From NCBI GenBank assembly GCA_023259015.1, contig JAHFRC010000008.1, positions 1 through 43,700 of the forward strand: a stretch of DNA of 43,700 bases, written 5' to 3'. The stretch is from Nitrosomonadales bacterium (lineage in GTDB: Bacteria > Pseudomonadota > Gammaproteobacteria > Burkholderiales > Gallionellaceae). Numbering within the stretch: the first letter of the stretch is position 1; each line of letters opens with the position of its first letter. The notes beneath the pieces are model-generated. The model was not told the origin of the DNA and made no database searches. It worked only from the letters and a program-made list of their open reading frames with translations. Below are positions 30,805 through 39,582 of the stretch, in pieces. The position numbers and the translations under genes are program-made.

Positions 30805-30819
30805 AAAAAGGGGTTGAGA

Positions 30820-32106
30820 TTGAAGATTCTGGTGATAGGTTCCGGCGGTCGCGAACATGCGCTGGCTTGGCGCCTGGCGCAAGGCGCCAAGGTGCAGAAA
30901 GTGTATGTCGCGCCGGGCAACGCGGGCACCGCGCTGGAAGACGGCGTGGAGAATGTCGCCCTCAGCGCCATCCCAGACCTCATCGCATTCGCCAAACGCG
31001 AAGACATCTACATGACCGTCGTCGGGCCGGAAGCGCCGCTGGCGGCGGGCGTGGTGGATGCGTTCCGCGCCGCAGGACTGAAAATATTCGGGCCGACCAA
31101 GGCCGCCGCGCAACTGGAATCCTCCAAGGATTTCGCCAAGCGCTTCATGGTGCGCCACAACATCCCCACCGCCTTCTTCGAAACCTTCAGCGATGCTAAT
31201 GCAGCACGTGCCTTTATCGAGGAGCACGGCGCGCCCATCGTCATCAAGGCCGATGGGCTGGCGGCGGGCAAAGGCGTGGTTGTGGCGATGAGCAAGGAAG
31301 AAGCCTTCGCCGCGATAGATATGATGCTGTCCGATAACAAGCTGGGCGATGCTGGCGCGCGCGTGGTGATCGAGGAATTCCTCGCGGGCGAAGAAGCCAG
31401 CTTCATCGTCATGGTGGATGGCAAAAATGTTCTGCCGCTGGCCACCAGCCAGGATCACAAGCGGTTACTGGATGGCGATAATGGCCCCAATACCGGCGGC
31501 ATGGGCGCGTATTCGCCTGCACCGGTAGTTACGCCGCAACTGCATGCGCGCGTGCTGCGTGAAGTGATACAGCCCGTGGTGCGCGGCATGGAAAGCGAGG
31601 GTGTCACTTACACCGGCTTCCTCTATGCCGGTCTGATGATAGATGCGCAAGGCAACATCAAAGTGCTGGAATTCAACTGCCGCATGGGCGATCCGGAGAC
31701 CCAGCCCATCATGTTGCGCCTGAAGAGCGACTTCGCGGTGATCGTCGAACACGCTATTGCCGGAACATTGAACCAGGTGGAAGCGGAGTGGGATACACGC
31801 ACTGCGCTGGGCGTGGTGATGGCGGCGGCAAACTACCCCGATACGCCGCGCAAGGGCGATGTCATCACCGGGCTTCCCAATGCTCATGGGGCAAAAAAAC
31901 TTGAAGACGCGCACGTATTTCATGCCGGAACCACGATGCAGGACGGCAAGGTTGTCACCAGCGGGGGACGCGTGCTATGCGTTACTGCGCTCGGCACCAT
32001 GGTGAAGCGGGCGCAGCAGCGCGCCTACGAAATCGCCGACACCATCCATTTCGAGGGCTGCCAGATGCGGCGCGACATTGGCTATCGCGCCATCGGGCGC
32101 AAGTGA
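30820..32106 (+). CDS. purD: Phosphoribosylamine--glycine ligase
   Basis: ILVIGSGGREHALAWRLAQ; IKADGLAAGKGVVVA; LEFNCRMGDPETQPIMLRLKSD; TTG start at 30814 or 30820. Confidence 0.96.
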   Translation: MKILVIGSGGREHALAWRLAQGAKVQKVYVAPGNAGTALEDGVENVALSAIPDLIAFAKREDIYMTVVGPEAPLAAGVVDAFRAAGLKIFGPTKAAAQLESSKDFAKRFMVRHNIPTAFFETFSDANAARAFIEEHGAPIVIKADGLAAGKGVVVAMSKEEAFAAIDMMLSDNKLGDAGARVVIEEFLAGEEASFIVMVDGKNVLPLATSQDHKRLLDGDNGPNTGGMGAYSPAPVVTPQLHARVLREVIQPVVRGMESEGVTYTGFLYAGLMIDAQGNIKVLEFNCRMGDPETQPIMLRLKSDFAVIVEHAIAGTLNQVEAEWDTRTALGVVMAAANYPDTPRKGDVITGLPNAHGAKKLEDAHVFHAGTTMQDGKVVTSGGRVLCVTALGTMVKRAQQRAYEIADTIHFEGCQMRRDIGYRAIGRK

Positions 32107-32376: not shown

Positions 32377-34074
32377 ATGCCCACGCTAGACTGGCTCAAC
32401 CGCGCCGAGGCGCTTACCGCAGCGGACAAGGTGCCGTACCGCGTGCTGCTGCCGGTGGCGGAATACACCGCACCGCCCCCGTCCGTTCGTCCTGAGCCTG
32501 TCGAAGGAGAAGGGGCGGGAGCGGCGCCGGGGGAAAGCATCCACGACAACCTCCTCATCCACGGCGACAACCTCGATGCGCTCAAGGCGCTGCTGCCGTT
32601 CTATCGCGGTCGGGTGAAGTGCATCTTCATCGACCCGCCGTACAACACCAAAAGCGCATTCGAGCACTACGATGACAACCTCGAACATAGCCAGTGGCTT
32701 TCGATGATGCAGCCGCGTCTGGTGCTGCTGCGCGAACTGCTGGCCGAGGACGGCAGCATCTGGGTGACCATAGACGACAACGAAGGGCACTACCTCAAGG
32801 TGCTGATGGATGAGGTATTTGGGCGGCAGAATTTTGTGGCGAATGTGATTTGGCAGAAAAAATATTCACCACAGAACGACGATAAAGGCATTACTCTGGC
32901 GCACGATCACGTACACATCTATTCAAAAAACAGAAATAGTTTTGCAATTAATTTGCTTCCGCGTACTGAAGCAATGAATGCGCGCTATGCAAACCCTGAT
33001 AATGATCCTAAGGGTGTTTGGAAAAACGGTGATCTGACTTCAAAGACTAAGGCGAAGGGTCACTCTTACCCTATCACGGGGCCAGATGGTCAAGTTCACT
33101 ACCCTTCTCCAGGCAGGCAATGGGCTCCTTCACAAGATACTTTTGATAGATGGATGGCTGAAGGAAAAATATGGTTTGGCCTATCAGGTACAAACAGGCC
33201 ATCCATAAAACAGTACCTGTCTGAAGTTCAGGCTGGAATGGTTCCATTGACGATTTGGTTACGCGAAGATGTGGGTGATAACCAAGAGGCAAAAAAAGAA
33301 ATCACAGTGCTAAATTCGTCTGAAATATTTGATACACCTAAACCAGAGCGTTTAATCCAACGTATCCTTCACATCGCCACCAACCCCGGCGACCTCATCC
33401 TCGACAGCTTCTTAGGCTCCGGCACCACTGCCGCCGTCGCGCACAAGATGGGGCGGCGCTGGATCGGCATCGAGATGGGCGGCCATGCCGAGACGCATTG
33501 CATCCCGCGCATGCAAAAAGTGATCGAAGGCGAACAGGGCGGCATTTCGCAGGCGGTGAACTGGCAGGGCGGCGGCGGCTTTCGTTTCATGCGGCTGGGC
33601 GAACCGATGTTCGAAGCGGACGGCAGCATTCATCCGGCGGTGCGCTTCGCCACGCTGGCGGGTTTTGTGTGGATGCAGGAGACGGGGTTGCCTCTGGGTA
33701 ATTCGTCGTTCCGGCGTAGGCCGGAACCCAGTCGGACAAAAATCCCGCATAGCGGACAAGATGTTGTCCCGCTGCGCGGGGCCGGTGAATTACTGGATTC
33801 CGGCCTGCGCCGGAATGACGCAAAGGGCAACACGCCGTTGCTGGGCGTGCATGAAGGCCGCGCGATTTATCTGCTGTTCAACGGCATCCTCGGCGACAAG
33901 CGCCCGCAGTCCGGCAACGTGTTGACGCAGGAGGTGCTGGCCGCGATCCACCGCATCTGCCCGCACGAGGGCGAGAAGCTGATTTACGGCGAGGCGTGCC
34001 GTCTGGGCGAGAAGCGGCTGGCGGCGGAAGGCATTACCTTCAAACATATTCCTTACGATGTGAAGGCGCGATGA
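32377..34074 (+). CDS. mod: Type III restriction-modification system DNA methyltransferase (Mod), carrying in-frame palindromic repeats
   Basis: FIDPPYNTKSAFEHYDDNLEHSQWLSMMQPRL (DPPY motif IV), LILDSFLGSGTTAAVAHKMGRRWIGIEMG (SAM-binding FGxG). Confidence 0.93.
   Translation: MPTLDWLNRAEALTAADKVPYRVLLPVAEYTAPPPSVRPEPVEGEGAGAAPGESIHDNLLIHGDNLDALKALLPFYRGRVKCIFIDPPYNTKSAFEHYDDNLEHSQWLSMMQPRLVLLRELLAEDGSIWVTIDDNEGHYLKVLMDEVFGRQNFVANVIWQKKYSPQNDDKGITLAHDHVHIYSKNRNSFAINLLPRTEAMNARYANPDNDPKGVWKNGDLTSKTKAKGHSYPITGPDGQVHYPSPGRQWAPSQDTFDRWMAEGKIWFGLSGTNRPSIKQYLSEVQAGMVPLTIWLREDVGDNQEAKKEITVLNSSEIFDTPKPERLIQRILHIATNPGDLILDSFLGSGTTAAVAHKMGRRWIGIEMGGHAETHCIPRMQKVIEGEQGGISQAVNWQGGGGFRFMRLGEPMFEADGSIHPAVRFATLAGFVWMQETGLPLGNSSFRRRPEPSRTKIPHSGQDVVPLRGAGELLDSGLRRNDAKGNTPLLGVHEGRAIYLLFNGILGDKRPQSGNVLTQEVLAAIHRICPHEGEKLIYGEACRLGEKRLAAEGITFKHIPYDVKAR
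32483..32507 (+). repeat. Intragenic repeat arm encoding VRPEPVEG inside mod
   Basis: ccgttcgtcctgagcctgtcgaagg, same family as 32154-32218. Confidence 0.8.
33705..33819. repeat. Intragenic inverted repeat in the mod 3' region, translated as FRRRPEPSRT...LLDSGLRRND
   Basis: Left arm gtcgttccggcgtaggccggaacccag, right arm ctggattccggcctgcgccggaatgac. Confidence 0.88.
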
Positions 34075-34092: not shown

Positions 34093-34178
34093 CGTCATTC
34101 CCGCGCAGGCGGGAATCCAGTGGGGTAAAACAAAATGCATTTTTGTCTTGCTGGATTCCCGCCTGCGCGGGAATGACG
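34093..34178. repeat. Inverted repeat between mod and res (same broad family as 33705-33819 and 38491-38663)
   Basis: cgtcattcccgcgcaggcgggaatccag ... ctggattcccgcctgcgcgggaatgacg, near-perfect long hairpin. Confidence 0.9.
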
Positions 34179-34203: not shown

Positions 34204-36864
34204 ATGGCTGACCTGAAGCTCAAGAATTACCAGTCCGCCGCGCTGTCGGCACTGTCGGATTTTTTGCACGCCTCAACCCAGGTGGGCGCGGCCAGCGCGT
34301 TCCAGCAGCAAGTGGAGCGTGCTTATCAAGCCGAGCCGTTCGGCGCAGTGCCGTGCGTGTGTCTGCGCATTCCCACTGGCGGCGGCAAGACGCTGATGGC
34401 TTCTCACGCTATCGTGCGCATGGCGCGCGAGTGGCAATCTTCGGACGCGCCGGTGGCGGTGTGGCTGGTGCCTTCGGATGCGATTCGTTCGCAGACGCTG
34501 GGCGCATTACAGACACCGGGGCATCCGTATCGCGTGGCACTGGAAGAAGCCTACGGCCAGCGCGTGCAGGTGTGCGACCTCGACCGCGTAAGCACGCTCG
34601 CGCCGACTGATTGGGGGCGGCAGGCGATTGTTGTGGTGGCGACGATACAGAGTTTCCGCGTGGAGCAGACCGATACGCGCAATGTGTATGCGTTCTCGGA
34701 AGCGTTCGAGCGGCATTTCAAATCGCTGTCGGCGGAGAAACTGGCAACGCTCTCCGTTGTGCCGGATGCGCATGTGACGGAAGCGGACGCGGCGGCCAAT
34801 GCGATGCTCAAGGCCTACGTCGGCCAGCCGCGCTTTTCACTCGCTAATTGGCTGGCGTTGCAGAATCCGCTCATCATTGTGGACGAGGCGCACAACGCGA
34901 AGACGGACAGGAGCTTCGCCGCGCTGATGCGGCTGAACCCATCGGCGATTCTGGAATTGACCGCGACACCGTTGCCGCACAAGAGCAATGTGCTGTATCA
35001 CGTTTCGGCGCAGGAGTTGCAGGCGGAACAGATGATCAAGCTGCCTATCACTTTGCGCGAGCATCCCGAGGGCGCGCAGGCCGCGATATTCGGCGCGGTG
35101 CAGACGCGGCAATGGCTGGAAACCGAGGCGCAGCAGGCGCAGGCTGCGGGCGATGCCTATGTACGACCCATCGTGCTGTTCCAGGCGCAGAACGTGAACG
35201 ACAAGTTGCCGCCGGAAACGGTGCGCCAGCATCTCATCAGCGAATTGCACATCCCCGAGGAGCAGATTGCAATTGCCACGGGCAGCCAGCGAGACATCGA
35301 AGGCGTGGACATCGCTTCGCCCGATTGCCCGCTACGCTACATCATTACGGTACAGGCGCTGCGCGAGGGCTGGGACTGCCCGTTCGCCTACATCCTGTGT
35401 TCGTTGCAGCCGCTTTCATCCGCGACCGCGATCGAGCAGTTGCTCGGGCGCGTGTTGCGTATGCCTTACGCGAGCAAGCGCAACCGCGACGCTCTCAACC
35501 GCGCCTATGCGCATGTGTGCGAGAGTACGTTCGCGCAGGCGGCGGGCGCGCTGGTGGACAGGCTGGTGTCCAACATGGGATTCGAGGCGCTGGATGTGGC
35601 TTCGATGATCGCGCCGCAGATGCCGCTGTTCGATGGCGTGCCGCAACCCGCAACGGCATTGCCGCCGGTGACGACCTTGCTGGAAGTGTCGAGCGATAAC
35701 GGCTTGCAGCATCTGGCGGGCGTTTCCGTTGCGCCTGCACCCTCTGGCCGTGGCGTGCATGTCACCGTGACGGGGCATGTGGACGAGGCGGTGGAGAAGG
35801 TGTTGCTGGCCGCCGAGCGCAGCGAGAAGAAGCGCGATGCCATGCGCGACAAGATCACTCAGCACAATGCGGTGGTGGCGGCGGAGACTGCGCCCGCGAT
35901 GCGCGGTGTGCCGTTCGTACCGGTTCCACCATTAGGTTATCGCAGCGATGTGCAGGCGAATTTATTTCCGCTGGAGCGCGAGGCGGTGCTGGAGAGCGTG
36001 GATTTGAATTTGCTGGCGCAACCGGTTTCATTGCCGGGCTTTCAGGTGGTGGAGCAGGACAATGCGTTCGAGATTTATCTCGACGAGCAGAACAAGGTGA
36101 AGATGAAGGCGGCGGATGCGCATCAGCTTACGCTCGACAGCGTGAACGTGAACATCACGGCGGACGATCTGGTGCGCTGGCTGAACCGCGAAGTGCGCCA
36201 GCCGGATATCGTGCAATCACATCTGCTGGCTTATCTGCGCGCGATGGTGAACTACCTGACCAATGAACAGCGCGTTGCACTCAACACGCTGGCGCGTATG
36301 CGCTTCATCCTTGCGCGCCGCATCGATGCGCAGATCGGCGACATGCGCGAGGCGGCAGCCAAGGCGCAGTTCCGCCAACTGGTGCTGGATGGCGGCTGGC
36401 AAGTGGAGCCGGACTGGAAGCATCCATTCGTTTTCGAGACTGGGTGCTACCCCGCACCTGCGGGCAGCCGCTATAACGGGCGCTGGGAATTCCAGAAACA
36501 TTATTACCCGGTGCTGGCCGATTTGAAAGACAAGGGCGAGGAGTTCGAGTGCGCGCGTTTGATCGACCGTCATCCCAAGGTGAAGCAGTGGGTGCGCAAT
36601 CTCGACCGCGATCCGGGATTCTGGTTGCCGGTTTCAAGAGGCCGCTTCTTCCCGGATTTTGTAGCCGAGCTGAACGATGGCCGCATCGCAGTGATCGAGT
36701 ACAAGGGCGCGCACCTGCGCAACGATCCGCATGAAATCGAGAAGAGACAGGTCGGCGAACTGTGGGCGAAGAACAGTAACGGCAAGTGCGTATTCCGTTT
36801 TATTTATCTTGATGACAACGGGATGAATATGGAAGCGCAGATTGATCAGGCTTGCGGTGCATGA
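34204..36864 (+). CDS. res: Type III restriction endonuclease subunit Res (DEAD/DEAH helicase plus C-terminal nuclease)
   Basis: IPTGGGKTLMASHAI (Walker A), LIIVDEAHNAKTDRSF (DEAH), IEQLLGRVLRMPYA (motif VI), C-terminal FPDFVAELNDGRIAVIEYKG (PD-(D/E)XK-like). Confidence 0.94.
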   Translation: MADLKLKNYQSAALSALSDFLHASTQVGAASAFQQQVERAYQAEPFGAVPCVCLRIPTGGGKTLMASHAIVRMAREWQSSDAPVAVWLVPSDAIRSQTLGALQTPGHPYRVALEEAYGQRVQVCDLDRVSTLAPTDWGRQAIVVVATIQSFRVEQTDTRNVYAFSEAFERHFKSLSAEKLATLSVVPDAHVTEADAAANAMLKAYVGQPRFSLANWLALQNPLIIVDEAHNAKTDRSFAALMRLNPSAILELTATPLPHKSNVLYHVSAQELQAEQMIKLPITLREHPEGAQAAIFGAVQTRQWLETEAQQAQAAGDAYVRPIVLFQAQNVNDKLPPETVRQHLISELHIPEEQIAIATGSQRDIEGVDIASPDCPLRYIITVQALREGWDCPFAYILCSLQPLSSATAIEQLLGRVLRMPYASKRNRDALNRAYAHVCESTFAQAAGALVDRLVSNMGFEALDVASMIAPQMPLFDGVPQPATALPPVTTLLEVSSDNGLQHLAGVSVAPAPSGRGVHVTVTGHVDEAVEKVLLAAERSEKKRDAMRDKITQHNAVVAAETAPAMRGVPFVPVPPLGYRSDVQANLFPLEREAVLESVDLNLLAQPVSLPGFQVVEQDNAFEIYLDEQNKVKMKAADAHQLTLDSVNVNITADDLVRWLNREVRQPDIVQSHLLAYLRAMVNYLTNEQRVALNTLARMRFILARRIDAQIGDMREAAAKAQFRQLVLDGGWQVEPDWKHPFVFETGCYPAPAGSRYNGRWEFQKHYYPVLADLKDKGEEFECARLIDRHPKVKQWVRNLDRDPGFWLPVSRGRFFPDFVAELNDGRIAVIEYKGAHLRNDPHEIEKRQVGELWAKNSNGKCVFRFIYLDDNGMNMEAQIDQACGA

Positions 36865-36875
36865 ACAGAGGAAAC

Positions 36876-36983
36876 ATGCTGTCATCCCGCGCTCTCGCCG
36901 TCTACCTGAAGCGCGGCGGCCTGATCGCCTACTCCACGGAATCCTGCTATAGCTTGGGTTGCGACCCATGCAACCGCAACTGA
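36876..36983 (+). pseudogene. tsaC: 5'-terminal remnant of a tsaC/yrdC gene
   Basis: RALAVYLKRGGLIAYSTESCYSLGCDPCNRN* versus intact RALAAHLKRGGLIAYPTESCYGLGCDPRNRKAV encoded about 1 kb downstream. Confidence 0.88.
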
Positions 36984-37020
36984 CGTCGTCTCGGCCAACA
37001 AGATTTCAGGGGAAAACTCC

Positions 37021-37926
37021 ATGAGCAAGAAGCGCGCGTTACCCGAAGAACCCGAAAACCATCTGGTGGTGTTTCAGGAAAAAGCCATCCGCCGTACCTG
37101 GCATAACGAGGAGTGGTGGTTTGCTATTGTGGATGTGGTGGCCGTTCTCACCGATTCGGTTCAGCCAGAGGGATACGTCAAGGATTTACGGCGCAGAGAC
37201 AAGGAATTAGCCAAAGGGTGGGGGCAAATTGCCACCCCCCTTCGGATTGAAACCGGGGGTGGGGTGCAGCGTGTGAACTGCGCCAACACCGAAGGCTTGT
37301 TCCGCATCATCCAGTCCATCCCCTCGCCCAAGGCAGAGCCGTTCAAGCGCTGGCTGGCGCAGGTGGGTTATGAGCGGGTGAAGGAGATCGAGAACCCGGA
37401 ACTGGCGAGCGTCCGCACCCGCGAGTTGTATCAGGCCAAGGGTTATCCGCAGGCGTGGATCGAGAAGCGCTTGCGCTCGATTGCTATTCGCGGCGAACTG
37501 ACGGACGAATGGAAAGAGCGCGGCGTGCAGGAGGGCAAGGAGTATTCCATCCTCACCGCCGAAATCGCCCGCGCCACCTTTGGCATTACACCGGGGGCGC
37601 ATAGCAAGCTCAAAGGGTTGGGCAATGTAAAGACCGGCAACAATCTGCGCGATCACATGACCGATCTGGAGTTGATCTTCACCATGCTGGGCGAAGCCAG
37701 CACCACGGAAATCGCGCGGCGCAAGGATGCGCAGGGCTTTAACGATAACCGCAAAGCGGCCAAGGAAGGCGGCGCCGTGGCAGGTAATGCCCGCAATGAA
37801 TTGGAGTCAAAAACAGGAAAGCCAGTCGTAAATAAAACGAACTATCTGGGTACGGCAGGAAAAGCAATTATCACCAGTGGCCCCGCCAGAAAAGCCCTAT
37901 CCAAAGGCCGGAAGGGCAAGGCGTGA
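37021..37926 (+). CDS. Bro-N domain (BRO family/DinD-like) protein
   Basis: VVFQEKAIRRTWHNEEWWFAIVDVVAVLTDS...YVKDLRRRD, EYSILTAEIARATFGITPGAHSKLKGLG...LRDHMTDLELIFTMLGEASTTEIARRKDAQGF. Confidence 0.85.
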   Translation: MSKKRALPEEPENHLVVFQEKAIRRTWHNEEWWFAIVDVVAVLTDSVQPEGYVKDLRRRDKELAKGWGQIATPLRIETGGGVQRVNCANTEGLFRIIQSIPSPKAEPFKRWLAQVGYERVKEIENPELASVRTRELYQAKGYPQAWIEKRLRSIAIRGELTDEWKERGVQEGKEYSILTAEIARATFGITPGAHSKLKGLGNVKTGNNLRDHMTDLELIFTMLGEASTTEIARRKDAQGFNDNRKAAKEGGAVAGNARNELESKTGKPVVNKTNYLGTAGKAIITSGPARKALSKGRKGKA

Positions 37927-38483
37927 CGGCAAGGCTACATGTTGCAATCCGCGCCCTTGCCGCACACCTCAAGCGCGGCGGCTTGATCGCCTATCCCACC
38001 GAATCCTGCTATGGTCTGGGCTGCGACCCGCGCAACCGCAAGGCGGTGCAGCGGCTATTGAAACTCAAGCAACGCCCGCAAAGTAAGGGGCTGATTCTGA
38101 TTGCAGGTAACTATGCGCAGCTTGCGCCTTACCTGAAACCGCTTTCTCTGGATGCGCAGGAAAAATTACGTGATGATGGCGCACGGGCGATCACTTACCT
38201 GATGCCCGCCAAGCCAAACTGCCCGCGCTGGCTGCGCGGCGCACACGACACGCTTGCGGTGCGCATCACTGCACATCGTCAGGCGGCAGCATTGTGCAAT
38301 GCGTTGCACATGGCCCTAGTTTCCACCAGCGCCAATTTCAGCGGCGGCAAGCCTGCGCGCACTTATGCGCAATGCAAAAAACTGTTCAGAGATAAAGTGT
38401 GGGTGTTGCCCGGCAGGGTGGGAAAACGTAAGAAGCCGTCCACGATACGCGCGTGGGCGGGTGGTAAAATCATCCGCGAGTAA
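37923..38483 (+). CDS. tsaC: L-threonylcarbamoyladenylate synthase (YrdC/Sua5 family)
   Basis: GTG start overlapping the upstream stop (GTGA); RGGLIAYPTESCYGLGCDPRN, KQRPQSKGLILIAGN, VSTSANFSGGKPART. Confidence 0.93.
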   Translation: MTARLHVAIRALAAHLKRGGLIAYPTESCYGLGCDPRNRKAVQRLLKLKQRPQSKGLILIAGNYAQLAPYLKPLSLDAQEKLRDDGARAITYLMPAKPNCPRWLRGAHDTLAVRITAHRQAAALCNALHMALVSTSANFSGGKPARTYAQCKKLFRDKVWVLPGRVGKRKKPSTIRAWAGGKIIRE

Positions 38484-38490
38484 CGCAAAT

Positions 38491-38663
38491 CCGTCATTCC
38501 GGCGCAGGCCGGAATCCAGCAAAATGATAATTCCTGCATAGCAGCCAAAAACAGGTGTTGCCCCTACGGGGGTTCGTTAATAGACTGGATTCCGGCCTGC
38601 ACCAAAGGTAGGCAATCCACTATCCGCTAAAGCGGATGTGGAATTGGCACCGCCGGAATGACG
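38491..38663. repeat. GGAATCCAG-type inverted repeat upstream of hemF with its right arm interrupted by a second hairpin-forming segment
   Basis: ccgtcattccggcgcaggccggaatccag ... ctggattccggcctgc | ~50 bp with ATCCGCT-AA-AGCGGAT | gccggaatgacg. Confidence 0.78.
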
Positions 38664-38685: not shown

Positions 38686-39582
38686 ATGGACAGTGCAGCA
38701 GTCAAAAAATTTCTACTCGGACTACAGGATGCGATCGTCGCCCGCCTTGAGCAAGTGGACGAGGAAAAATTCCGCCGCGACAGTTGGGAGCGGCAGAATG
38801 GCGGTGGCGGATGCTGCTTCATCCTGGAAGAGGGCAAGGTGCTGGAACGCGGTGGGGTGGCGTTTTCCCATGTGATGGGAGATAAAATGCCGGTTTCTGC
38901 CACGGCACACCGCCCGGAACTGGCGGGTTGCAGTTGGGAGGCGATGGGCGTGTCGCTGGTGCTGCATCCGCGCAACCCGTATGCGCCCGCCACGCACATG
39001 AATGTGCGCATGTTCATGGCGAAAAAACCCGATGGTGAAACCGTGTTCTGGTTCGGCGGCGGCACGGACCTTACGCCTTACTACGGCTTCGCGGAGGATG
39101 CGGTGCATTTTCACCAGACCTGCAAGAATGCGCTCGATCCGTTCGGTGCGCACCTCCACCCCAAATTCAAGAAATGGTGCGACGACTATTTTTTCCTCAA
39201 GCACCGCAACGAGCCGCGCGGTGTGGGCGGCATCTTCTTCGATGACTTGAGTGAACCGGATTTCGACACCTGCTTCGCCATTCAGCAAAGCGTGGCCAAC
39301 CATTTCATTCCGGCTTACCTGCCCATTCTGGAACGCCGCAAGGACACGCCCTATGGCGAGCGCGAACGCGATTTCCAGTTGTATCGCCGTGGGCGTTATG
39401 TCGAGTTCAACCTGGTGATCGATCGCGGCACCATCTTCGGACTGCAATCGAACGGCCGCACCGAATCCATCCTGCTTTCCATGCCGCCGCTGGTGAAATG
39501 GCGCTATGATTGGCATCCGGAGAAAGGCACGCCGGAGGCGAAACTACATGAAGAATTCCTGGTGCCGAAAGATTGGGTGTAA
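38686..39582 (+). CDS. hemF: Oxygen-dependent coproporphyrinogen-III oxidase
   Basis: [91 protein letters not shown]. Confidence 0.97.

Follow-up and report, generated by a model that had tools for sequence, protein, structure and literature searches.

How does the 5' end of a housekeeping gene come to lie, cut short, in front of a Bro-N gene that is itself followed by a complete copy of the same housekeeping gene? The question is raised by the purD-hemF interval of a 43,700-nucleotide stretch of DNA (the window), which belongs to contig C71 of a 1.79-Mb metagenome bin that is 73% complete and comprises 94 contigs. As listed in Table 1, five co-oriented features (mod, res, a tsaC 5' remnant, a Bro-N gene and an intact tsaC) are found between purD and hemF, and mod, res and Bro-N are the only genes besides the remnant that separate purD from the intact tsaC. 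An earlier note, made from the letters alone, had described the succession of remnant, Bro-N gene and intact tsaC behind res, and the open reading frames, the Pfam and NCBIfam matches and an agreement of the two tsaC copies at 77/93 nucleotides all bear it out.

Table 1. Positions of the features of the purD-hemF interval in the window
Feature	Position	Strand	Evidence or remark
purD	30814..32106	+	left core flank of the slot; ORF
mod, type III DNA methyltransferase	32377..34074	+	Pfam N6_N4_Mtase; PADLOC MTase_III, 640 bits
res, type III restriction subunit	34204..36864	+	Pfam ResIII; PADLOC REase_III, 741 bits
tsaC 5' remnant ORF, 35 codons + stop	36876..36983	+	77/93 nt identical to intact tsaC; Pfam and NCBIfam matches
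joint CATGCAACCGCAACTGA, contains GCAACCGCAA	36967..36983	+	identical to the Bro-N leader of G036
Bro-N leader, open 18-codon frame MQPQL...P*	36968..37023	+	overlaps the Bro-N start
Bro-N gene	37021..37926	+	Pfam Bro-N; PADLOC candidate PDC-S13, DinD-related
intact tsaC, GTG start	37923..38483	+	NCBIfam TsaC type 1
hemF, right core flank	38686..39582	+	Pfam Coprogen_oxidas

The remnant is a dead and diverged copy of the tsaC 5' end

The remnant ORF begins with an ATG 11 bases past the res stop, carries GAGGAA in front of it and ends in TGA, and both its position and the GAGGAA motif appear exactly as would be expected of a tsaC gene directly downstream of res. It aligns with the intact tsaC, 1062 bp away, over 93 nt without a gap (83%); no other direct repeat in the region is as long or as good. 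The models Sua5_yciO_yrdC of Pfam (E=4e-5) and TsaC of NCBIfam (E=7e-6) both match the remnant. The earlier note had spoken of a 36-codon copy with 26 of about 31 residues identical to the intact protein. A tsaC N-terminus with a stop is indeed present, and the copies are homologous and diverged, but the counts are 35 codons and 25/31 residues. Moreover, the tsaC-derived part runs only to about 36966-36980, and the last four codons together with the stop most likely come from the Bro-N leader rather than from tsaC.

The remnant carries P25S and G31S, whereas P is found in 117/118 and G in 118/118 of the relatives at these near-invariant positions, which argues that the copy is dead. Ten synonymous and four non-synonymous differences (25 codons) separate it from the intact gene. 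Because these differences are mostly synonymous, the copies are diverged alleles and not a fresh tandem duplication, as the earlier note had also held. The most fitting reading is that both alleles diverged as working genes and that the remnant probably lost P25 and G31 only afterwards. Outside this locus, the only YrdC-domain gene that a genome-wide search for further tsaC or sua5 genes recovered is a TIGR00057-type paralogue on contig C16, and no second copy of the remnant/Bro-N/tsaC unit was found elsewhere in the genome. Short paralogue matches like that of C16 appear in many relatives; thus, redundancy of tsaC was ruled out as the cause of the remnant.

The remnant runs into the leader of the Bro-N gene

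Most close relatives of the Bro-N gene have unrelated sequence upstream, beyond the ribosome-binding site. The leader comparison draws on one other genome, G036, whose Bro-N (87%) does not adjoin tsaC and is preceded by CATGCAACCGCAACTGA at 54 bases, the same distance as in the window. The window and this leader are identical at 17/17 positions of the joint, the similarity runs on to the start codon, and the 18-codon frame is open in both, overlapping the Bro-N start in G036 (L057:1448-1503) as in the window. A second Bro-N type, which stands in tandem with Bro-N in L059 and L066, starts with the residues MQPQ, and the short frame resembles it there. At the matching place tsaC reads GACCCGCGCAACCGCAA, and GCAACCGCAA is common to the joint, or leader, and to tsaC near 38032-38041. 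The tsaC 5' end and the leader of G036 have no word longer than 10 nt in common; this longest one is located at the joint, and a word of at least 10 nt was reached in 3/300 shuffles.

Because the leader identity is complete and GCAACCGCAA also occurs in tsaC, we take this site to be the joint of a mod-res-tsaC allele and a Bro-N-tsaC allele; within the remnant, tsaC sequence would thus give way to the Bro-N leader at GCAACCGCAA or next to it. The change from CCGCGC to CCATGC could represent two transitions, in which case the joint would lie at the word's other edge. That the stop codon of the remnant had arisen by a decay mutation was also considered, and this was dropped after the match with the G036 leader.

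The Bro-N gene and the type III system

The window Bro-N matches PADLOC PDC-S13 with 373 bits and is accordingly a candidate defence protein, for which no description was found in the literature searched. An NCBIfam profile search of this protein yielded no match, placing it below the cut-off of DinD (NF008573), whereas the DinD of G144 scores 443 bits against a cut-off of 242. Full-length relatives of Bro-N exist, C-terminal tail included, many named ones among them from Gallionellaceae, and the window gene keeps its own C-terminal tail at the right side (compare L113). A viral source was examined and set aside, as a search of IMG/VR returned a single distant match (42%) and hence no sign of a phage carrier. 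RhuM is the left neighbour of Bro-N in G036 and G185 and is missing in the window. In G195 (L184), the Bro-N before tsaC has an in-frame internal deletion of ~40 residues, with a conserved C-terminal motif gone.

Relatives of res at 80-82% are found in G040, G174 and G053, located away from tsaC. In G040 and G174 (L085, L086), the closest type III systems carry a Bro-N relative between their mod and res genes, so that Bro-N is repeatedly found in the company of restriction genes. The window mod contains, at 33687-33827, an in-frame stretch of ~140 bp of palindromic CGTCATTCCGGCG-type repeats, which is shorter in L085 and L086, and similar repeats occur at 34093-34178 and 38488-38522.

The slot before tsaC is a turnover hotspot for defence-type genes

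The tsaC neighbourhoods of 120 Gallionellaceae relatives were compared, in 98 of which purD and tsaC share a contig. The purD-tsaC gap is below 400 bp in 88 of these 98 and has a median of 33 bp over all of them, and the two genes are adjacent in all three congeners; we take purD-tsaC-hemF to be the ancestral order. Inserts of 561-7202 bp interrupt purD-tsaC in 10/98 relatives, as opposed to 0/106 for tsaC-hemF (Fisher p=0.0005), and none was seen in dusB-fis or fis-purH (0/72 each). The purH-purD gap is also enlarged in 21/83 relatives (e.g. L260, L282, L280), so that there may be a hotspot on either side of purD.

Defence- or toxin-type genes, a label assigned by family and not by test, and for many of them denoting candidate families, stand upstream of tsaC in 16/120 relatives, a count that takes in relatives whose purD has been relocated or is missing from the contig. 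They comprise type IIG (G040), SoFic/Fic (G009, G062, G065, G024), type I HsdR (G180, G045, G163), DUF1016 (G180), an AbiLi-like ATPase with RloB (G018), RhuM with Bro-N (G185), ORF6N (G125) and PIN (G041). Bro-N lies directly before tsaC in four other genomes, namely G185, G195, G201 (41% identity) and G153 (fragments), and a true DinD does so in a fifth (G144). These neighbours are co-oriented with tsaC, and most of them end at most about 60 bases from its start, several overlapping it, while those of G018 and G180 lie farther away. Thus, the position immediately upstream of tsaC is a hotspot of turnover for defence-type genes, and a limited literature search found no earlier description of it.

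Relatives free of inserts have an empty purD-tsaC junction and no remnant, and none with the remnant alone was seen in the empty-site comparison that the earlier note had proposed. Since a second tsaC 5' fragment is absent in all 120 relatives, the remnant is private to the present genome among these and tied to the inserts. The remnant is nonetheless tsaC of the Gallionellaceae type, which together with the insert-free relatives indicates that incoming DNA settled next to tsaC and orphaned a 5' end. A second case of truncation comes from G040 (L043:2318-2364), where a 47-nt piece from the 5' end of a mod gene, matching the window mod at 41/47 positions, lies between purD and the type IIG gene; in another genus, too, a mod gene therefore probably once followed purD immediately and was truncated likewise. 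Swaps in the purD-tsaC slot can, as these two loci suggest, leave 5' fragments at the left joint.

Origin of the two tsaC copies

The intact tsaC scores 206 bits against the NCBIfam TsaC type 1 cut-off of 175, and its GTG start overlaps the Bro-N stop (GTGA), comparable to an ATGA overlap in G185. Its nearest relatives are the three congeners (80%), to which it is 77% identical in nucleotides, while the congeners are 83-84% identical among themselves; these values are proportional to those of purD and dusB, and no mosaic signal was seen in tsaC and hemF. As a whole, the intact gene fits vertical descent in the genus, which would mean that the donor was congeneric, that only the 5' end was replaced, or that the polarity of the exchange was reversed. 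By identity, the remnant is placed nearest to the congener G001 (83%), followed at 81% by the intact copy and several others. The phylogeny of remnant versus intact copy that the earlier note had called for could be built on only 75 usable columns and has very few supported forks, and AU tests reject neither a grouping of the remnant with the intact copy nor one with the congeners. In genus g9, several genomes (e.g. G011, G020, G057) have no type 1 TsaC, their matches being confined to longer Sua5-like frames (mostly ~330-370 aa) and other, distant ones; G185, which is assigned to g9 as well, has the order Bro-N-tsaC-hemF.

Proposed recombination of two slot alleles

We propose, with a probability of roughly 0.78, that the arrangement arose through recombination between two alleles of the slot, in one direction or the other. 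In the version that we prefer, and which we give about an even chance, leader-BroN-tsaC DNA recombined into a purD-mod-res-tsaC-hemF chromosome. The purD-tsaC junction would take up and lose defence-type genes, and in the earlier state tsaC would have stood directly behind res. The incoming DNA would have carried leader, Bro-N and tsaC in an order found in other Gallionellaceae. At the right end it would have crossed over through ordinary homology in tsaC/hemF, and at the left end an illegitimate joint at GCAACCGCAA would have linked the old tsaC, at about its 36th-40th codon in the numbering of the intact gene, to the Bro-N leader. The old 5' end would thereby have been cut off and left to decay as the remnant, the outcome being one working tsaC joined to Bro-N by the stop/start overlap. 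The genomes compared display the empty site, a remnant that has diverged, the sequence of the joint and, for both alleles, the gene order or a near equivalent, whereas the polarity and the route, most likely transformation, are what we infer from them. ComEC is encoded in 36/40 family genomes sampled, all congeners included, and was not found in the present 73%-complete bin, which leaves transformation plausible. The joint itself is best read as resembling homology-facilitated illegitimate recombination, one end of the DNA having presumably crossed over through homology while the other was joined at a short shared word. That process, which involves segments of 3-10 bp (PMC6382021), has been described for A. 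baylyi, S. pneumoniae and P. stutzeri (PMC6382021, PMC4437187).

The same joint may also be read with the polarity reversed, such that purD-(leader)-BroN-tsaC-hemF was resident and a purD-mod-res-tsaC5' fragment came in, with the homologous crossover in purD, the illegitimate joint at the Bro-N leader and a foreign remnant. The breakpoints are identical under both polarities, and the vertical descent that the intact tsaC appears to reflect would suit this reading; nothing speaks decisively against it. The missing RhuM fits either direction, and the distance of the remnant to the congeners, once dead-gene changes are discounted, does not exceed its distance to others. We consider this reversal less likely, though a serious contender, and Bro-N-tsaC is favoured only slightly as the incoming allele.

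The tsaC 5' end might instead have been duplicated in tandem within the genome, for instance by template switching during an insertion, after which the upstream copy decayed. The two copies are of the same family and close together, and the dead-gene changes P25S and G31S would be expected of a decaying duplicate, but too many of the differences (10/14) are synonymous for a model in which the intact copy accepts synonymous changes only and the remnant is free (p=0.018; ~0.05 with transition bias), and we hold such a duplication to be quite improbable.

Still less probable is the integration of a site-specific mobile element in the 5' end of tsaC that brought a replacement 5' end with it, which the earlier note had favoured. 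Formally, the layout can be described as an insert of 1062 bp that is bounded by GCAACCGCAA on either side. This insert contains only Bro-N, however, and no integrase was found within the window, no tyrosine recombinase on contig C71 and no att-like repeat recurring at other occupied sites. The remnant occurs in 0/120 relatives, 16 of which have this place occupied by other genes, and no tsaC 5' end lies to the right of the Bro-N leader in G036. Of the earlier proposal, the arrival of DNA beside tsaC and the orphaned 5' end stand, and the integrating element is not supported. An assembly artefact, conceivable for an incomplete bin of 94 contigs, is hardly credible, as the window has no runs of N, the copies are too diverged (83% alike) to be an assembly duplicate, and independent assemblies again show Bro-N adjoining tsaC and the leader adjoining Bro-N.

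Why this slot should be used is a matter for conjecture. The start of tsaC, a gene of the conserved tRNA modification t6A, might be a preferred docking point for incoming defence genes, which would be retained if their stop codon lay against or across the start of tsaC and they thereby shared its transcription and translation; Bro-N/DinD proteins might be preferred at this point through an influence on RecA-dependent exchange or t6A-linked stress. We regard this proposal as rather doubtful.

Comparison with known systems

SXT integrates at prfC by targeting the 5' end of the gene and supplying a new one. SXT-like elements resemble the window in that an old 5' end is left behind and a complete gene is restored, but the window differs from them in having no integrase, attachment repeat or recurrence. 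The Bro-N protein of the window belongs to the same broad family as DinD (as a PDC-S13 match), with a true DinD occupying the slot in G144. As in homology-facilitated illegitimate recombination, a presumed homologous crossover on one side is paired with a short shared word on the other, here as read from the sequence.

In Vibrio, modules have been proposed to displace one another in sequence and leave orphan genes behind, and homology-facilitated illegitimate recombination was put forward as the route for the displaced T6SS modules (PMC5361080). The displacement of T6SS effector-immunity modules in V. cholerae is alike in that a new module displaces the old and a leftover persists beside it (PMC5361080), except that what is left over in the window is the dead 5' end of a housekeeping gene instead of a working immunity gene. 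Integrase-less hotspots that exchange their contents via flanking core genes are well described (PMC5635113, PMC10250203). The purD-tsaC slot shares with such defence hotspots, including cDHS1/2 of P. aeruginosa (PMC10250203), the fixed core flanks, the varied defence genes, the empty sites in relatives and the lack of a recognisable mobile element (PMC5635113); it differs from them in being tiny, in lying within a row of biosynthetic genes, in usually holding one gene or system and in having been traced across genera rather than within a species. The window thus offers, at base resolution, the scar of a defence-gene swap made without a mobile element beside a conserved housekeeping gene, a scar suggesting that the 5' end of a core gene can be overwritten and restored during such swaps, and the compact hotspot either side of purD is a place to seek new defence genes in this family of iron oxidisers. 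The gene order is unusual, but the exchange behind it is of an ordinary and known kind.
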